Shown: in pieces, positions 5,543-12,763 of the stretch
Position numbering within the stretch: the first letter of the stretch is position 1
Layout: each line of letters starts with the position of its first letter
Origin: Asaia bogorensis
Lineage (GTDB): Bacteria; Pseudomonadota; Alphaproteobacteria; Reyranellales; Reyranellaceae
Direction of reading: 5' to 3'
DNA length: 34,561 nucleotides
Assembly (NCBI GenBank): GCA_945905835.1
Contig: CAMDQJ010000041.1
Location: 1 to 34,561, forward strand
Notes under the pieces: model-generated
Told to the model about the DNA's origin: nothing
The model's database searches: none
What the model saw: only the letters and a program-made list of their open reading frames with translations
Translations under genes and position numbers: made by a program

Positions 5543-6802
5543 ATGTCCAGGTCAATTCCTTCTTTCTTCACTCTGGCGCTTCGCGTCTTCCTGCCGTTCG
5601 CTTTCGCCTATTTCCTCTCCTACATCTTCCGCGGCGTGAACGCCGTGATCTTCCCGTATCTCGAACGCGATCTCGGCATCACCGCAGGCGATCTCGGCCT
5701 GCTGACCTCGGCCTTCTTCCTGTTCTTCGCCGGCTGCCAGCCGGTCCTCGGGGTCATGCTCGATCGCTACGGCCCACGCCGTGTGCAGACCTTGCTTCTG
5801 GTGACAGCGGCGGCGGGCTCGGCGCTGTTCGGACTGTCGACCTCCCTGCCCGAGCTGATCGCGGCGCGCGTGCTGATCGGCCTCGGCTTCGCTGGAGGTC
5901 TGATGGCCGCCATCAAGGCGATCACGCTGTGGTTCCCGCCTGAGCGCTGGGGCTTGATCACCGGTCTTCACATGATGGCGGGCGGCGTTGGCTCGATGAC
6001 GGCGACGCTGCCTATACAATGGTCGCTCTCGATCATGACCTGGCAGGGCCTGTTCTTCTGGTTGGCGGGAACCTGCCTTCTGACGGGCATCTGGCTCTTC
6101 GCTACGGTGCCCGAGCGCGACATCCCAGGTGACAAGGGCACGCTGCGCGAGCAGTTCCGCATTACCGGCACCGTACTGACCGACGGGTTCTACTGGCGCA
6201 TCCAGCCGCTGCTCATGATCCAGCAACTCGCCTTCATCGGCTGTATTTCACTGTGGATCGGCCCGTGGCTGCGCGACGTCGGCGGTATCGCCGACACCGC
6301 GGCGCGCGCCGACATCCAGCTCTACACGACGGCGGTGATGACCGTGGGTTTCGCCGCATCGGGCGTCGTCGCCGGCTTGTTTGCCCGCTTCGGCATCGGC
6401 GGCTTCACCTCGGCCGGTATCATGAGCCTGCTGTTTGCGCTCGACTGCGGCTGGATCGCCTTCGCGCCGCCGGCCAATCCGCTGGTCCCGTGGCTGCTGT
6501 TCGGCTTCCTCGGCGCCTGTCCGATTCAATACCTGCCCGTCATGGTCTCGTCTTTCCCGCCGGCCTATGCCGGGCGCGTCACCACCAGCAGCAATCTCGT
6601 GGTCTTCACCGTGATCTTCGCCGGTCAGTGGGCGATCGGCAGGGTAGTCGACCTGTGGCCCCGCACTGCGACTGGTTACGCGGCAGACGGCTACACCTGG
6701 TCATTCGGCGCGCTATTCATCCTGCAACTGGCCGGACTGGTGTGGCTGGTGCTGTCGCGGGCGCGGCCGATGGCGGCGCGGGCTGCGGCGGCGGCAGGTT
6801 GA
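5543..6802 (+). CDS. MFS transporter
   Basis: An inner-membrane secondary transporter of 419 residues with about 12 hydrophobic helices. The loop after helix 2 reads GVMLDRYGPRRV, the conserved MFS loop (G-x3-D-R-x-G-R-R). There is a central cytoplasmic loop near residues 190-215 and a second six-helix half. The substrate cannot be assigned. It diverges from the VWA gene with a gap of about 60 bases. Its last 86 bases overlap, on the opposite strand, the 3' end of the MipZ-like gene, where MFS encodes an Ala-rich tail and MipZ a Pro/Ala-rich tail. Confidence 0.92.
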   Translation: MSRSIPSFFTLALRVFLPFAFAYFLSYIFRGVNAVIFPYLERDLGITAGDLGLLTSAFFLFFAGCQPVLGVMLDRYGPRRVQTLLLVTAAAGSALFGLSTSLPELIAARVLIGLGFAGGLMAAIKAITLWFPPERWGLITGLHMMAGGVGSMTATLPIQWSLSIMTWQGLFFWLAGTCLLTGIWLFATVPERDIPGDKGTLREQFRITGTVLTDGFYWRIQPLLMIQQLAFIGCISLWIGPWLRDVGGIADTAARADIQLYTTAVMTVGFAASGVVAGLFARFGIGGFTSAGIMSLLFALDCGWIAFAPPANPLVPWLLFGFLGACPIQYLPVMVSSFPPAYAGRVTTSSNLVVFTVIFAGQWAIGRVVDLWPRTATGYAADGYTWSFGALFILQLAGLVWLVLSRARPMAARAAAAAG

Positions 6803-7673
6803 GCGCCGCCACGAGGTCCCGCACTTCCTGACGCGCCGCGACATGGCTCAGGGTCAGCGACGGGCCCGTCCCCTTGCCATTGGCTGGCGACCGCTTGAGA
6901 TCGAGCAGTGCCAGCCCATTGAGGAAAAGTTCGCGATAAACCACACGCTCACTCAAGCCCGGTGCCACGCGGAAGCCGAATCCGATGCGCTTGGTCAAGG
7001 CATCGAGAACCGCGCCCATGTCGCGCTTGTTGCGTGCGGCGAGCGAGGACAGGCGATTGCGCGTCACGATCCAGTCGATCGGCCGGCCGCCCAGGATCGC
7101 GCGCGCCTGGCGCTGCTTCCACACCGCCTCCGCAAAGATCGAGGGCCGCAGGACCTTCAACGTGTCTGGGTCGACACGCGCCAAAAGATCGAGATCGACG
7201 AAACTGTCGTTGAGCGGCGTCAGCAGCGTGTCGGCCCAGGTGAGCGCCAGCCGCGACAGGTGCGTGTCGCTTCCCGGCGTGTCGACGATGACGAAGTCGG
7301 CAGCCAACAGCGCCGGTTCGAGCGCCACCTCGAAGCGCGCCTTTTCGTCGGCTTCCTCCGCTTCGCGGTCGGGCAAGGTGGAGACGCGCACCACCGCATG
7401 CACCGGCATCGGCAGCGCCACGCCGCTGCGCTTGGCATAGGCGGCGCGGTTCTCGAGATATCGACTCAGCGTGGCCTGGCGGGCGTCGAGATCGAGCGTG
7501 CCGACGCGCACGCCGTCGCTCATCAACGCCACGGCGATGTGCAGTGCCGTGGTCGATTTGCCCGACCCGCCCTTTTCGTTGGCGATCACCAGGACATGGG
7601 CGCGTCCGGCGATCCGTGGCGCCTGCGACTGGATGATGCTGGGATTAGCCAGCTGTTTGAAAGTGCCGCTCAA
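6717..7673 (-). CDS. mipZ: MipZ-like ParA-family ATPase (division-plane positioning)
   Basis: In Alphaproteobacteria MipZ forms gradients from the ParB-bound poles and inhibits FtsZ, placing the division site at midcell. The deviant Walker A motif NEKGGSGKST is at about residues 32-41, followed by TLDLDARQATLSRYLENR, which is characteristic of MipZ rather than chromosome-partition ParA; VDTPGSD is the second nucleotide-binding block. The TTG at 7673 is chosen because it starts just after the upstream oxidoreductase stop (7684). A GTG at 7736 would add 21 residues and overlap that gene by 53 bases. The Pro/Ala-rich C-terminal tail overlaps the convergent MFS gene. It may share a transcript with the upstream oxidoreductase. 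Confidence 0.85.
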   Translation of the reverse strand: MSGTFKQLANPSIIQSQAPRIAGRAHVLVIANEKGGSGKSTTALHIAVALMSDGVRVGTLDLDARQATLSRYLENRAAYAKRSGVALPMPVHAVVRVSTLPDREAEEADEKARFEVALEPALLAADFVIVDTPGSDTHLSRLALTWADTLLTPLNDSFVDLDLLARVDPDTLKVLRPSIFAEAVWKQRQARAILGGRPIDWIVTRNRLSSLAARNKRDMGAVLDALTKRIGFGFRVAPGLSERVVYRELFLNGLALLDLKRSPANGKGTGPSLTLSHVAARQEVRDLVAALNLPPPQPAPPSAAPATAPATPVRPVAG

Positions 7674-7683
7674 CCTGGACCGC

Positions 7684-9795
7684 TTACGCCAATTTGCGGA
7701 CCCAGACGGCGGTGTCGTGAAACACGGCGCCACCATGCGGCCAGCCGGGATCGGCCGACGTCACGGCATTGATGCCGATACCGGTCTCGAAGTTGCGATT
7801 GGGCCAGATGCCCTCGACGACGACGACGCCCCTCTGCTGACCGGCCTTGGGCTTGGCACGCACGATCGTTTTGCCGCGTTCGTTGCCGACTTCGACGCGA
7901 TCGCCCTCGACCACGCCCATGGTGGCGCAATCTTCGGGGTTGATCATCGCCGTCGGCCGCACTTCGCGTTTCTGCGAGCTCGGCGTCTCGGTGAACGTCG
8001 AATTGAGGAAGGTGCGCGCCGGTGCGGCGACCAGGCGAAACGGCTTTTCCGCCGTGGCGTTATCGATCACGTCGAAATGGTCGGGCAGTTTCGGCATGTC
8101 CTTGCCGCGCGGCCCATAGGTCGTCCAGTCGGGCTTGAAGCGGAACTTCTTGTCCGGCCAGGCGAAGCCATCGAGGAAGTGTGAGGTCTCGAAGCCCAGG
8201 TGATAATCCTGGCCACCCTTGCTCCAATTGGTCTCGGCATCCCACATGCCGGACTTCTTCAGCGTCTCGTCCATGATCTCCCACGGCGTCATGTCGAAGC
8301 CGCGATGCCTTGCGCCGAGCCGCTTGGCCAACTCGGAAATTACGTAGTGGTTCTCGCGTGTTTCGCCCGGCGCCTCGATGACGGCCTTCGTCACTTGGAA
8401 ATAAGTGTGCCCGCTCGCGGTGTAGAAATCGTCATGCTCGAGGAACATGGTTGCCGGCAGCACGATGTCGGCATAGGCCGCCGTCTCGGTCATGAACTGC
8501 TCGTGCACGCAGACGAACAGGTCGTCGCGCTTGAAGCCCTTGTGCACCAGCTCGAGCTCGGGGCAGACCATCGCTGGATTGGTGTTCTGGATCAGCATCG
8601 CCGTCACCGGCGGACCGCCCTTCAGCGCCTCGCGGTCGCCGGTCAGGATCGGCCCCAGCCGTGACTGGTCGAGATCGCGGATCGAGGTGTCGACTACGTC
8701 CAGACCTTCGATCAGCGTACGATTGAGCGGATACATGCCGGTGTGGCCGTAGAGCGCGCCGCCTCCCTTGTATTTCCACGCGCCGGTCACCGCCGGCAGG
8801 CACGTCACGGCGTGCATGTTGACCGCGCCGTTGCGGCTGCGGCTGAAACCGTGATGGCAGCGGATGAAGGCGGCCTTGCTCTGCCCGAATAGGCGCGCAA
8901 AGGCCACGATCTCGTCCGCCGGCAGGCCGGTGATCTTCGACGCCCACTCCGGGGTGCGCGTCGAGACATGGGCTGCCAACTCATCCGGCGCATCGGTGTA
9001 GCGGCGAAGATAATCCCAGTCGGCGTAGCCTTCTTTGAACAGCACATGCATGACGCCGACCGCCAGCGCGCCGTCTGTGCCCGGCCGCACCGCGAGATGC
9101 ATGTCGGCCTGCTCGGCGGTGCCGGTGCGATAGGGATCGACCACGACCAGCTTGGCGCCGCGCTTCTTGGCGCGCATGGCGTGGCTCATGACGTTGACCT
9201 GGGTGTTCACGGGATTGCCGCCCCAGATCACCACCAGATCGGAATGTTCGGCGATCTCGCGCATATCGGCGCCGCGCTTGGCGCCGGTGCCGACGATCCA
9301 GCCGGTATCGGAGAGCGTGACGCAAATGGTCGAGAAATAGCGCGAGTATTTCATCTCGTGCCGCAGCCGGTTGATGCCGTCGCGCTGCACGATGCCCATA
9401 GTGCCAGCGTAATAATACGGCCAAACCGTTTCCGCACCGTGCTGGCGTGCCTTGGCCTGGAACTGCTCGGCCACTGTATCGAGCGCGTCGCTCCACGAGG
9501 TCTCGGCAAACTGCTTGGAACCCTTGGGTCCGGTACGACGAAGCGGCTTCATCAGCCGGTCGGGGTGATGGATGCGTTCGGCGTAGCGCGCGACCTTCTC
9601 GCAGATCACACCCGCGGTGTAGTCGTTGCGCTGCGAGCCGCGCACGCGGCCGATCGTCCTGGCGTCTAGTCGCTCGACGTCCAGCGCACAGGTGCTGGTG
9701 CAGTCGTGCGGGCACACCGACGGAACGATGGTTACGCCGGAGTCTGGATTTTTGGCCCGCGCACCGGGTGCAAAGGCATGATCGTCAGGGGACAT
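7684..9795 (-). CDS. Molybdopterin-dependent oxidoreductase (DMSO-reductase superfamily), copy 1
   Basis: Mo/W-bis-MGD enzyme of 703 residues. The N-terminus carries a [4Fe-4S] ligand set C28-x3-C32-x3-C36-x28-C65. It is followed by the MGD-binding domains (WGGNPVNTQ, VVVDPYRTGTAEQADMHLAV, LIQNTNPAMVCPELE) and a C-terminal molydopterin-dinucleotide-binding beta barrel containing GVVEGDRVEVGNERG. No Tat signal is seen, so it is probably cytoplasmic. The substrate is unknown; the family includes formate dehydrogenases, acetylene hydratase and others. The ATG at 9795 is used; longer frames upstream are arginine-rich and overlap the divergent gene. A second related gene lies at 19272-21308. Confidence 0.92.
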   Translation of the reverse strand: MSPDDHAFAPGARAKNPDSGVTIVPSVCPHDCTSTCALDVERLDARTIGRVRGSQRNDYTAGVICEKVARYAERIHHPDRLMKPLRRTGPKGSKQFAETSWSDALDTVAEQFQAKARQHGAETVWPYYYAGTMGIVQRDGINRLRHEMKYSRYFSTICVTLSDTGWIVGTGAKRGADMREIAEHSDLVVIWGGNPVNTQVNVMSHAMRAKKRGAKLVVVDPYRTGTAEQADMHLAVRPGTDGALAVGVMHVLFKEGYADWDYLRRYTDAPDELAAHVSTRTPEWASKITGLPADEIVAFARLFGQSKAAFIRCHHGFSRSRNGAVNMHAVTCLPAVTGAWKYKGGGALYGHTGMYPLNRTLIEGLDVVDTSIRDLDQSRLGPILTGDREALKGGPPVTAMLIQNTNPAMVCPELELVHKGFKRDDLFVCVHEQFMTETAAYADIVLPATMFLEHDDFYTASGHTYFQVTKAVIEAPGETRENHYVISELAKRLGARHRGFDMTPWEIMDETLKKSGMWDAETNWSKGGQDYHLGFETSHFLDGFAWPDKKFRFKPDWTTYGPRGKDMPKLPDHFDVIDNATAEKPFRLVAAPARTFLNSTFTETPSSQKREVRPTAMINPEDCATMGVVEGDRVEVGNERGKTIVRAKPKAGQQRGVVVVEGIWPNRNFETGIGINAVTSADPGWPHGGAVFHDTAVWVRKLA

Positions 9796-9857: not shown

Positions 9858-11111
9858 TTGTCGCCAGCCTCGCCTGCTCCACCCGCCATTCGCCGCGCCG
9901 TCGATGCCGACGCGCCCGCCGTCGCGGCGCTGCTGTCGCGCGAGGCGCGGCCGGCCACCACCGAGGATCGCGCAACCTTCGTGATGGAGGCCGACGGCCG
10001 GCTGATTGGCGCGCTGGAGCTCGTCCAGACCGCCGATCATCTGGCGATCAATTGCATTGCCGTCGCGGCCGACATGCGAGGCCACGGTCACGGCAAGGTC
10101 CTTGTGGCCTTCGCCGAAGCCGCTGCGCGCGAGATCGAGGCCCGCGAGCTCAGCATCGGCCCGCGCGTCACGGCCAACGGCTTCTTCACCGCGCTCGGCT
10201 ACACCGGCGGCCGAAAGCGGGTCGCCGGCGGGTCGATTCAGCTCGCCCGCCAGCATCTCGAAGCCGTGGGCGTGCCCCTGCTGCGCGACGGCAGCGGAAC
10301 GCTCGGCCGGACCGTCTACTATCGCGCCGTCTGGACCGCGATAGCGATTATCGTCGGCGTGGGCAGCATTTCGCTCGCTGCCTTCGGGCGCGGGCAGCTG
10401 ACGATCGTGCATCTGGCCTTGCCGGCAATCCTTTGCCTGGCGGGTACGGCCTTCGCGTTCTGGCAGCTCGTGCTGGTGATCGTCGCGGCGCGGCGCGTTG
10501 ACCGCGCGGCCCGCTCCCTGCTGGCGATGGCGGCCGCGGTAGCCGCGATGTTGGCAATCGCCGACACGATCTACGACAAGGCGGTCCCCCAGCTCGCCGA
10601 GCTGTGGGCGATCTACCAGGGCGACGTCGAGAGGAACGACTTCGTCATGGTGGTGAGCCCCGACGGACGGGCGCTGCATTTCGAGGGATCGCTCGGGATC
10701 GGCACCGAGAAGGCCATGCAGCTGGTCCTCCGCGAGCATCCTGCCGTGCGTGAGGTTGTGCTGGCGGGCCCCGGCGGCCGGCTTGGCGCCGCCTACGAGG
10801 TATCCCACATGCTGCGCAGGCACCGCCTCGCCACGCGTGTCGACGGCGAATGCGCCTCGGCCTGCACGATCATGTTCCTGGGCGGCGTCGAGCGCCGCGT
10901 TTCGCCGGGCGCCGTTCTCGCCTTCCATCAGGCCGGTTTTCCCGGCATGAGCAAGGCCGACATGTACGACAGCAATCGGTATTTGACGCGCTTCCTGATC
11001 GTCCAGGCGGGCCTCACTTCGGCCTTCGCCAATCGCGTCGTCGACACACCGCCCGACACGGTGTGGGTGCCGACGCTCGACGAGTTGAAGGCCGGCCGAG
11101 TGGTGAAGTGA
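9858..11111 (+). CDS. GNAT acetyltransferase / membrane / ClpP-like protease-fold fusion
   Basis: A 417-residue protein with three parts. Residues 11-115 form a GNAT domain, with the acetyl-CoA loop RGHGHGK at 74-80 and a C-terminal NGFFTALGY motif. Residues 158-236 contain about three hydrophobic helices. Residues 262-417 match the COG3904-type ClpP/SppA-like fold: GPGGRLG, a serine in GECASACTIMFLGG (Ser334), a histidine in AFHQAG (His357), and a VWVPTLDELKAGRV end. Ser and His align with the ClpP catalytic pair by order (inference). The start is the TTG at 9858; no ATG or GTG fits and the ribosome-binding site is weak. It precedes an acyl-CoA synthetase by 11 bases with a good AGGAGA site. 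Confidence 0.75.
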   Translation: MSPASPAPPAIRRAVDADAPAVAALLSREARPATTEDRATFVMEADGRLIGALELVQTADHLAINCIAVAADMRGHGHGKVLVAFAEAAAREIEARELSIGPRVTANGFFTALGYTGGRKRVAGGSIQLARQHLEAVGVPLLRDGSGTLGRTVYYRAVWTAIAIIVGVGSISLAAFGRGQLTIVHLALPAILCLAGTAFAFWQLVLVIVAARRVDRAARSLLAMAAAVAAMLAIADTIYDKAVPQLAELWAIYQGDVERNDFVMVVSPDGRALHFEGSLGIGTEKAMQLVLREHPAVREVVLAGPGGRLGAAYEVSHMLRRHRLATRVDGECASACTIMFLGGVERRVSPGAVLAFHQAGFPGMSKADMYDSNRYLTRFLIVQAGLTSAFANRVVDTPPDTVWVPTLDELKAGRVVK

Positions 11112-11122
11112 CAGGAGACGGC

Positions 11123-12763
11123 ATGATCCCGCACGGCGTTCCCTACGAAGAAGCGATGAAGCAATTCCGCTGGCCCCGGCCCGACAAGTTCAACATCGGC
11201 CGGGCGGTCTGCGAGCGTCATCCGCCGGATGCGCTGGCGCTGATCGTCGAGAATGCCGACGGCGGCGTTCGCAACTGGACGTTCGGTCAATTGCTAACGG
11301 CGAGTTCGCGGCTGGCCAATGCGCTCGGCGAGCGCGGCGTCGGCAAGGGTGACCGTGTCGGCGTCTTCCTGTCGCAAGGCGCGGAACTTACGCTCTGCCA
11401 TCTCGCCTGCTACCGCATGGGCGCCATAGCGCTGCCACTGTTCAGCCTGTTCGGCGAAGAGGCACTGGAGTTCCGCCTCGCCAACGCCGAGGCCTCGGCC
11501 ATCGTCACCGACATCAGCCAGCTGCCCAAGCTGCTGGCCGTGCGCGACCGCCTGCCGCATCTCAAGACCGTCGTCGTGATCGGCGCCGGCGCGCACGGCG
11601 ACGACTTCCTTGATTGGGACCGCCTGCTCGCCGCCGCATCCGACCGCTTCGCCACGGTCGACACCGACGCCGAGGACCCGGCGCTCCTGATCTATACGTC
11701 CGGCACGACGGGGCAACCCAAAGGGGCGCTGCACGCGCATCGTATGATGCTGGGTTCGATCCCGCCGGTGGAGCAGTGGCTCAGCCACTGGCCGCGCGGC
11801 AACGAGGTCATGTGGACGCCGGCCGAATGGGCGTGGATCGCCGGGCTCTACGACGCTCTTTTTCCGGCCTGGTACTACGGCACGCCGGTGCTGGCGCATC
11901 GTTTCGCCAAGTTCGACCCGGAGCGCGCCTTCGCGCTGCTGGCCAAGCACCGCGTCGGCGTCGGGTTCATCCCGCCGACCGCGCTCAAGATGATGCGCCA
12001 GGTCGACAAGCCACGGCAGCGCTGGAATTACGATCTGCGCGCCGTCAGCACCGGCGGCGAGGCCATGGGCGAGGAGCTTCTGGCCTGGGGCCACGACACC
12101 TTCGGCACGACCATCTCGGAAGGCTACGGCCAGACCGAGATGAACCTGATGCTGCTCAATTCGCCGGACTGGTTCGAGGTTCGCCCCGGATCGTGCGGCC
12201 GCGCCTGCCCCGGCCGCCGCGTCGCCATCGTCGATGCCAACGGCGATCCGCTACCGGCCGGCCAGGAAGGCCAGATCGCGGGCTGGCGCTACGATCCCAT
12301 CGTCATGCTGGAATACTGGCGCAACGCCGAGGCGACCGAGCGCAAGTATGCCGGCGACTGGCTGCTGACCGGCGATCTCGGGCGGATGGACGAGGACGGC
12401 TATGTCTTCTTCAAGAGCCGCGACGACGACGTGATCACCTCGGGCGGCTATCGCATCGGCCCGGGCGAGATCGAGGAGTGCCTGATGAAGCATCCTGCCG
12501 TCGCCATGGTCGGCGTCGTCGGCATCCCGGACAAGGTGCGCACGGAGATCGTGAAGGCGTTCGTACAGCTCCGGCCGGCCGTGGCGGCGAGCGAAGCGCT
12601 GAAGGGCGAGCTGGCGCAGTACGTGAAGACGCGGCTCGCCGCCCACGAATATCCGCGCGAGGTCGAGTTCGTGTCGGAGTTGCCGTTGACCACGACGGGC
12701 AAGATCATGCGACGGGAGTTGCGCCGCCTCGACGCCGAGCGCCGAAGCGCGACGGGCGGCTAG
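11123..12763 (+). CDS. AMP-dependent acyl-CoA synthetase
   Basis: A 546-residue ANL-superfamily enzyme that activates a carboxylic acid as acyl-AMP and transfers it to CoA. Visible motifs are the P-loop IYTSGTTGQPKGALHAHR (A3), ISEGYGQTEMNL (A5), the hinge region with DGYVFFKSRDDDVITSGGYR (A7-A8), and TTTGKIMRRELR with the catalytic Lys (A10). The pattern resembles medium-chain or acetyl-CoA-synthetase-like members; the precise acid is unknown. The ATG at 11123 has AGGAGA upstream and lies 11 bases after the previous stop, so the two genes are probably an operon. Confidence 0.95.
   Translation: MIPHGVPYEEAMKQFRWPRPDKFNIGRAVCERHPPDALALIVENADGGVRNWTFGQLLTASSRLANALGERGVGKGDRVGVFLSQGAELTLCHLACYRMGAIALPLFSLFGEEALEFRLANAEASAIVTDISQLPKLLAVRDRLPHLKTVVVIGAGAHGDDFLDWDRLLAAASDRFATVDTDAEDPALLIYTSGTTGQPKGALHAHRMMLGSIPPVEQWLSHWPRGNEVMWTPAEWAWIAGLYDALFPAWYYGTPVLAHRFAKFDPERAFALLAKHRVGVGFIPPTALKMMRQVDKPRQRWNYDLRAVSTGGEAMGEELLAWGHDTFGTTISEGYGQTEMNLMLLNSPDWFEVRPGSCGRACPGRRVAIVDANGDPLPAGQEGQIAGWRYDPIVMLEYWRNAEATERKYAGDWLLTGDLGRMDEDGYVFFKSRDDDVITSGGYRIGPGEIEECLMKHPAVAMVGVVGIPDKVRTEIVKAFVQLRPAVAASEALKGELAQYVKTRLAAHEYPREVEFVSELPLTTTGKIMRRELRRLDAERRSATGG

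Follow-up and report, generated by a model that had tools for sequence, protein, structure and literature searches.

The window analysed here, a stretch of DNA of 34,561 nucleotides, carries on its forward strand a gene (9858-11111; coding 9858-11108) that starts with TTG, ends at a TGA stop (11109-11111) and encodes a protein of 417 amino acids in three parts. The N-terminal part is a GNAT domain by prediction (residues ~10-135; 9885-10262), which matches PF00583, has GNAT structures among its best Foldseek matches, and contains an acetyl-CoA P-loop motif, RGHGHG (Arg74-Gly79; 10077-10094), found in the window's copy only among those compared. Three predicted membrane helices follow (residues 149-254; 10302-10619), with a positively charged loop at residues 211-222. 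The remainder of the protein is a domain of predicted ClpP fold (residues 265-417; 10650-11108), alignable with VIA-align to PDB entry 4ryf_A. Within it, Gly306-Gly307 (10773-10778) aligns with the PGG of the ClpP oxyanion loop, the serine of Cys332-Ala-Ser334-Ala-Cys336 (10851-10865) with the ClpP nucleophile, and His357 (10926-10928), part of an FHQ motif, with the catalytic histidine. Asp400-Thr401 (11055-11060) is aligned to the position of the ClpP catalytic acid, and Asp400 is the candidate third residue.

Two enzyme genes flank the fusion. A divergent molybdopterin oxidoreductase gene lies upstream (7684-9795, reverse strand; PF00384, 1.6e-42), and a gene for an AMP-forming acyl-CoA ligase lies downstream (11123-12763, forward strand; PF00501, 3.7e-74). 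The ATG of the ligase gene (11123) is 11 bases past the stop of the fusion, with AGGAG in the gap, and the ligase is likely to be in the same transcript. Its best NCBIfam match is the acetate--CoA ligase family PRK04319 (1.5e-127, below the cut-off of that family). On its other side, the oxidoreductase gene adjoins a gene for a ParA-like ATPase (6717-7736, reverse strand; NCBIfam 1.7e-17, below cut-off), which is kept at 67-78% identity in the loci shown. An overlapping opposite frame (6843-7772, forward strand) has no Pfam match and is probably not a gene.

A fusion gene in Reyranella

The initial annotation of this DNA had described one open frame joining the three parts and had proposed a search for full-length co-linear homologues. 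Such homologues exist. A protein search covered 101 genomes, and a profile search of the 65 genomes of the genus Reyranella found the full-length fusion in 45 of them, the window's own counted. These amount to 46 places, two of them in a single genome (G049). The two copies in that genome (L015 and L141) differ, and the assembly comprises ~430 contigs with 2% contamination, so that both a second copy and contamination are possible. After two relatives of the C-terminal part (L038 and L122) were removed from the full-length set of 47 sequences, 45 distinct fusions remained, and the 44 other than the window's are 42-50% identical to it. Carriers include Reyranella massiliensis 521 and R. aquatilis KCTC 52223, and the fusion sequences labelled Asaia, Rhizobium and Enhydrobacter are the same sequences as those of genomes placed in Reyranella. 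One further copy is cut by a contig end (G018), and another is split in two only by a run of X that corresponds to a scaffold gap of N (G019). Among 18 other genomes of the genus, seven have only a distant relative of the C-terminal part and 11 have no match at a threshold of 1e-15. Outside the genus, only the C-terminal part was matched in the 385 class and 398 phylum genomes sampled (E <= 1e-12). Within the genomes sampled, the three-part protein has so far been seen in Reyranella only, and other genera may yet prove to carry it.

The recurrence of the full-length arrangement in 45 of 65 genomes rules out chance or an error at the junction, and translation and relatives agree that the GNAT-derived domain, the helices and the ClpP-like domain form one real gene. 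The fallback explanation of the initial annotation, that a lost base had erased a stop between two genes, can be set aside almost with certainty, since relatives at 42-50% identity, mostly in the same place, have one uninterrupted frame without a stop at the junction, residues there such as Leu134, Glu135, Gly138, Pro140, Arg156 and Trp159 are invariant in 22 of 22 aligned sequences, and the break in G019 is a scaffold gap. A TGA was counted in five full-length rows. In the window's row it is the gene's own stop, and in the other four (G049, G042, G044 and G024) the protein search showed no stop, its match ending a few codons earlier.

The position of the gene is also largely conserved. Two of the 45 loci were not counted upstream and four were not counted downstream, their flanks being shorter than 800 bases. 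The divergent oxidoreductase gene lies less than 1 kb from the fusion in 38 of 43 testable loci, and a same-strand ligase gene lies within 300 bases in 36 of 41 and within 2 kb in 39 of 41. Spacing varies in a few cases: the ligase match starts ~1.0-1.4 kb after the fusion in L065, L066 and L081, and ~1.3 kb separates the oxidoreductase and the fusion in R. massiliensis (L069). The oxidoreductase and ligase genes are direct neighbours, without the fusion, in 11 genus-mates and in two outgroup genomes (G246 and G061). The gap between match ends at these empty sites is 105-116 bases in the genus and 160-217 bases in the outgroups, leaving no room for the fusion, so a stable pair has either gained the gene between its members or lost it. 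The two neighbours were not matched adjacent on one contig in the remaining seven of the 18 fusion-less genomes (G057, G010, G047, G007, G041, G051 and G027).

Presence and absence of the fusion require at least five changes on a tree of the oxidoreductase (39 rows with the fusion, 13 empty and three not counted). The flanking genes are ~80-92% identical to the window's where an ortholog was matched, in contrast to 42-50% for the fusion, which therefore evolves much faster than its surroundings. A diverged fusion between conserved flanks, together with the alternation of filled and empty sites, possibly marks a spot of repeated exchange. The protein is a new arrangement of known folds, conserved and seen in one genus only. 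Its combination of domains is described in none of the titles listed by searches of open-access literature, most subscription papers lying outside those searches.

The ClpP-fold domain and its membrane anchor

The C-terminal part is most likely a ClpP-fold hydrolase. The AlphaFold2 model of the whole protein has moderate confidence (pLDDT 72.9, pTM 0.44), and its residues 265-417 align with the Listeria ClpP1/2 entry 4ryf_A over 145 residues (Z 15.8, rmsd 2.6; VIA-align), the Z-score coming from a re-alignment of Foldseek's own matches. The assignment is fainter at the level of sequence. A sequence search of the PDB with the window's domain alone gave a single match, a diol dehydrase beta subunit (E 0.88), and no Clp protease, and the C-terminal half of the protein has no Pfam ClpP-type match (E up to 1). 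In NCBIfam, residues 299-360 weakly match a ClpP-related head maturation protease (0.0024). Among relatives, L122 reaches 19.0 bits with PF00574, below the gathering threshold of 20.2; CLP_protease matches three of the 16 members of one alignment (A3; best E 0.0006); and ten C-part relatives that were scanned have no Pfam family above cut-off over the ClpP-like part. A sequence profile built from the fusions and the C-part relatives, by contrast with the single domain, does reach Clp proteases of the PDB (best 4.4e-4), and in these alignments the oxyanion loop, nucleophile and catalytic His of ClpP are matched by the glycine pair, Ser and His, respectively.

The Ser, the His and the oxyanion glycines of the ClpP-like site are strictly conserved. 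Ser334 and His357 lie where the initial annotation had placed them, and both are invariant in the relatives compared, together with Gly306, Gly307, Cys332 and Cys336 (all 45 fusions and all 42 C-part relatives). Six of these 42 relatives (L086-L091) were found by a contig scan with patterns taken from this family, which cover part of the Ser motif, so that conservation is biased for those six; protein or profile searches yielded the remaining 36. The relatives are proteobacterial proteins with membrane segments and a ClpP-like part of the pattern CxSAC...GFH, for which we take COG3904, predicted periplasmic protein, a name that occurs in one paper of the literature searched, to be the label. 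They share the C-module with the fusion, including the Ser/His/Cys pattern in all 42, but were matched on that part only, and some carry GYF_2 (L038:835-2667 and L088:5200-7095) or Sel1 repeats (L044:436-2055), not GNAT, whose absence was scanned in a subset of the 42. Other N-terminal parts thus occur in this ClpP-like family, and an uncharacterised family of membrane ClpP-fold proteins, present in 30 of the 398 phylum genomes sampled with Reyranella counted, takes on different N-terminal domains.

Conservation of the third residue is looser. What we take to be the catalytic Asp of ClpP is aligned at position 401, two before the conserved Trp403. Position 400 is Asp in 38 and Glu in two of the 45 fusions, and position 401 is Glu in 18, Ser in 15, Asp in six, Thr in four and Ala in two. 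An acid is present at one or the other position in 43 of 45 fusions (the exceptions are L010 and L027) and in 27 of 42 C-part relatives. The Ser-His pair and oxyanion loop are therefore strict, whereas the acid is usual but not strict. The domain resembles ClpP (PF00574) in fold, PGG oxyanion loop and register of Ser and His, and 43 of 45 fusions have an acid at the ClpP position or next to it. It differs in being membrane-anchored, in its less strict acid, in the Cys-x-Ser-x-Cys arrangement at the nucleophile and in having no Pfam CLP_protease match. The proteases 1510-N and NfeD are likewise membrane-linked and of ClpP fold; 6m4b is in the Foldseek list, and relatives of the fusion have weak NfeD1b_N matches. 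These enzymes use Ser-Lys catalysis, whereas the fusion has an invariant His at the position of the ClpP His.

Peptidase activity through Ser334 and His357 is probable. A competing interpretation, to which we assign a minor but appreciable share of the probability, is that the domain is a pseudo-protease that binds, scaffolds or acts as another hydrolase while retaining the fold and the Ser/His pair. In its favour are the lack of an acid at positions 400 and 401 in 15 of 42 relatives and two of 45 fusions, the nature of the flanking genes, neither of which encodes an unfoldase, and the presence of crotonase-type families among the weak matches. However, none of the 87 sequences departs from Ser, His or either oxyanion glycine, and Clp proteins whose Asp is replaced by Asn are known; Listeria ClpP1 is presumably one, in agreement with the title of entry 4jcr, an N165D mutant.

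For the membrane anchor, hydropathy peaks and the long helices predicted in the AlphaFold2 model at residues 149-175, 183-213 and 217-254 fit three membrane segments. The net charge, counted as Lys/Arg minus Asp/Glu, is +2 ahead of helix 1 (140-158), +1 in the loop after it (176-184), +3 in the loop from helix 2 to helix 3 (211-222) and -3 past helix 3 (238-262). Under the positive-inside rule, these counts predict that the GNAT part lies inside and the ClpP part outside, which puts the two soluble parts on opposite sides of the membrane, one of the arrangements that the initial annotation had considered. An oxidising compartment could be compatible with the pair of cysteines flanking Ser334.

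The GNAT-derived domain and its P-loop

Residues 34-115 of the window's protein match PF00583 (Acetyltransf_1) above cut-off (E 3.3e-10). The best NCBIfam match of the domain is ArsN2 (NF040501), but at 33.9 bits it falls far below the family cut-off of 125, and the domain is not an ArsN2. The acetyl-CoA P-loop (R/Q-x-x-G-x-G/A) occurs in one of the 45 distinct fusions, the window's, and in none of the other 44; inspection by eye found none in the cut copy of G018 or the split copy of G019. Recognition by Pfam follows the same line. Only the window's copy has a Pfam GNAT match among the 22 fusions scanned (alignment A1, 22 of 45), and scanning of 24 P-loop-less N-domains (alignment A2, 24 of 44) gave three GNAT-family matches at E up to 5, the best at 0.052.

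The P-loop-less domains are nevertheless homologous to the window's GNAT domain (24 sequences; hhalign 99.8%, E 1e-28) and are predicted to keep its fold. A model built from the 24 (pLDDT 80.2, pTM 0.80) gave 960 Foldseek matches at E <= 10 (29 at E <= 0.001), and the 50 listed are all of acetyltransferase type, with TM-scores of 0.39-0.62 by query against the listed entries. Those of OrfE, RibT and 4crz/4cry we class as GNAT. Purifying selection is indicated in every part of the protein. Among near pairs picked by hand, all 15 have dN/dS below 1 in the GNAT-derived part (0.17-0.45), the membrane part (0.06-0.56) and the C-terminal part (0.05-0.43). A dN/dS below 1 in a domain without the cofactor loop indicates that it is maintained and is not decaying freely. 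Because the acetyl-CoA site is absent in nearly all relatives, the N-terminal part probably regulates or docks and does not acetylate.

How the window's copy came to differ may be read in two directions. It is simpler to suppose that the others lost the P-loop, because its regain in place, inside family-like sequence, would be unlikely. The window's genome does not form an early species branch on the oxidoreductase tree, which nests it near G052 (93/72). Given this nesting, loss in all others would need an old allele acquired by exchange at the locus, or several losses. In the tree of the fusion itself, the window's copy sits on a very long branch (~1.1 changes per site) in an unsure position. 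Holding it with the 14 rows of its species-tree clade, two of which (L003 and L009) have no oxidoreductase row and were added by hand, costs 6.8 log units (p-AU 0.051, borderline). Holding it with L010 (G052) alone costs 7.4 log units (p-AU 0.19, not rejected), and holding the 14 rows together without the window's copy costs 5.5 (p-AU 0.23). Long branches dominate the outgroup tree, and an old copy is not told from a fast one by identity to the 42 C-part relatives, which is 30.8% for the window's copy vs 29.8-34.0% for the others. On these trees, the window's copy may be either an early-diverging one with its P-loop retained or one that evolves rapidly.

Arrival of a fresh GNAT domain by domain swap or gene conversion was also considered and is not favoured, because the window's copy is distant from its 44 relatives throughout (identity 33-45% in the GNAT part, 41-51% in the membrane part and 47-57% in the C part) and the sequence on either side of the P-loop is family-like. 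A conversion tract, if very short, could still have been involved.

Proposed function and competing interpretations

Our preferred interpretation, which we hold with slightly more confidence than doubt, is that the protein is a ClpP-fold hydrolase anchored in the membrane and facing outward, with a GNAT-derived domain in the cytosol that serves in regulation or docking. The membrane module of the wider proteobacterial Cys-x-Ser-x-Cys and His family would have been joined to a GNAT domain in one lineage, and the fused gene would have entered the gap between the molybdopterin oxidoreductase and acyl-CoA ligase genes. Outside the membrane, the C-terminal hydrolase, probably a peptidase, would use Ser334 and His357. 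On the cytosolic side, the GNAT-derived domain would now regulate the hydrolase or dock a cytosolic partner, for which the product of the downstream ligase gene is a candidate. In the window's species the domain would have retained its acetyl-CoA-binding loop, and acetyl-CoA may still be sensed or used there; elsewhere among the species seen, the loop would have decayed while selection kept the fold. Proteolysis by this ClpP-fold family outside the cytosol has become a question that can be tested.

A GNAT fold in a non-catalytic role has a parallel in PanZ (YhhK) of Escherichia coli, an activator of PanD. Entries 2k5t (YhhK), 4crz and 4cry, of which we take the latter two to be PanZ complexes, are among the Foldseek matches of the P-loop-less domain, a similarity of fold only. 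PanZ differs from the fusion in being a separate, soluble CoA-binding protein without a membrane or ClpP part; a sequence link between the two was not seen, with no PanZ family among the family matches listed. The authors who studied it call the role of PanZ in the self-cleavage of PanD "not catalytic" (PMC3496974), so that there a GNAT fold acts on the processing of another protein.

Less favoured than a pseudo-protease, and on balance improbable, is the interpretation that the GNAT-derived domain binds and controls the downstream acyl-CoA ligase, as AcuA does with AcsA in Bacillus subtilis. The tight same-strand linkage of the two genes (11 bases in the window, at most 300 in 36 of 41 loci) and the acetate--CoA ligase family as the ligase's best NCBIfam match speak for it. 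AcuA is reported to form a complex with AcsA and, by binding, to abolish AcsA activity (PMC11255334), which indicates that a GNAT domain can act by binding. The interpretation rests on linkage, however; 11 genus-mates have the ligase without the fusion, 44 of 45 copies are without the acetyl-CoA loop, and the C-terminal domain is not tied to such a role.

The initial annotation had suggested that acetylation on one side of the membrane might be tied to proteolysis on the other or at the membrane. A live acetyltransferase coupled to a live protease is unlikely to be what the protein does in general. In favour of it, a canonical R-x-x-G-x-G loop and a GNAT score are found in the window's copy, Ser and His never vary at the ClpP site, and most fusions have an acid. 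However, with 44 of the 45 distinct sequences lacking the P-loop, and the best GNAT-family match of 24 such N-domains at E 0.052, coupled acetylation is not supported as the general function of the family, and the suggestion could hold at most for the window's own copy. For that copy, a more specific model can be framed as a speculative proposal that we consider unlikely to be correct as it stands: the protein would be a transmembrane metabolic switch in which the GNAT domain, by binding acetyl-CoA or acetylating a partner, gates the outer ClpP-fold peptidase, the relatives having been rewired to another cytosolic signal after CoA binding was lost. Whether GNAT folds are reused as non-catalytic regulators can now be tested on a natural series, in which one GNAT domain with an acetyl-CoA site and 44 without it occur inside one mostly syntenic gene.
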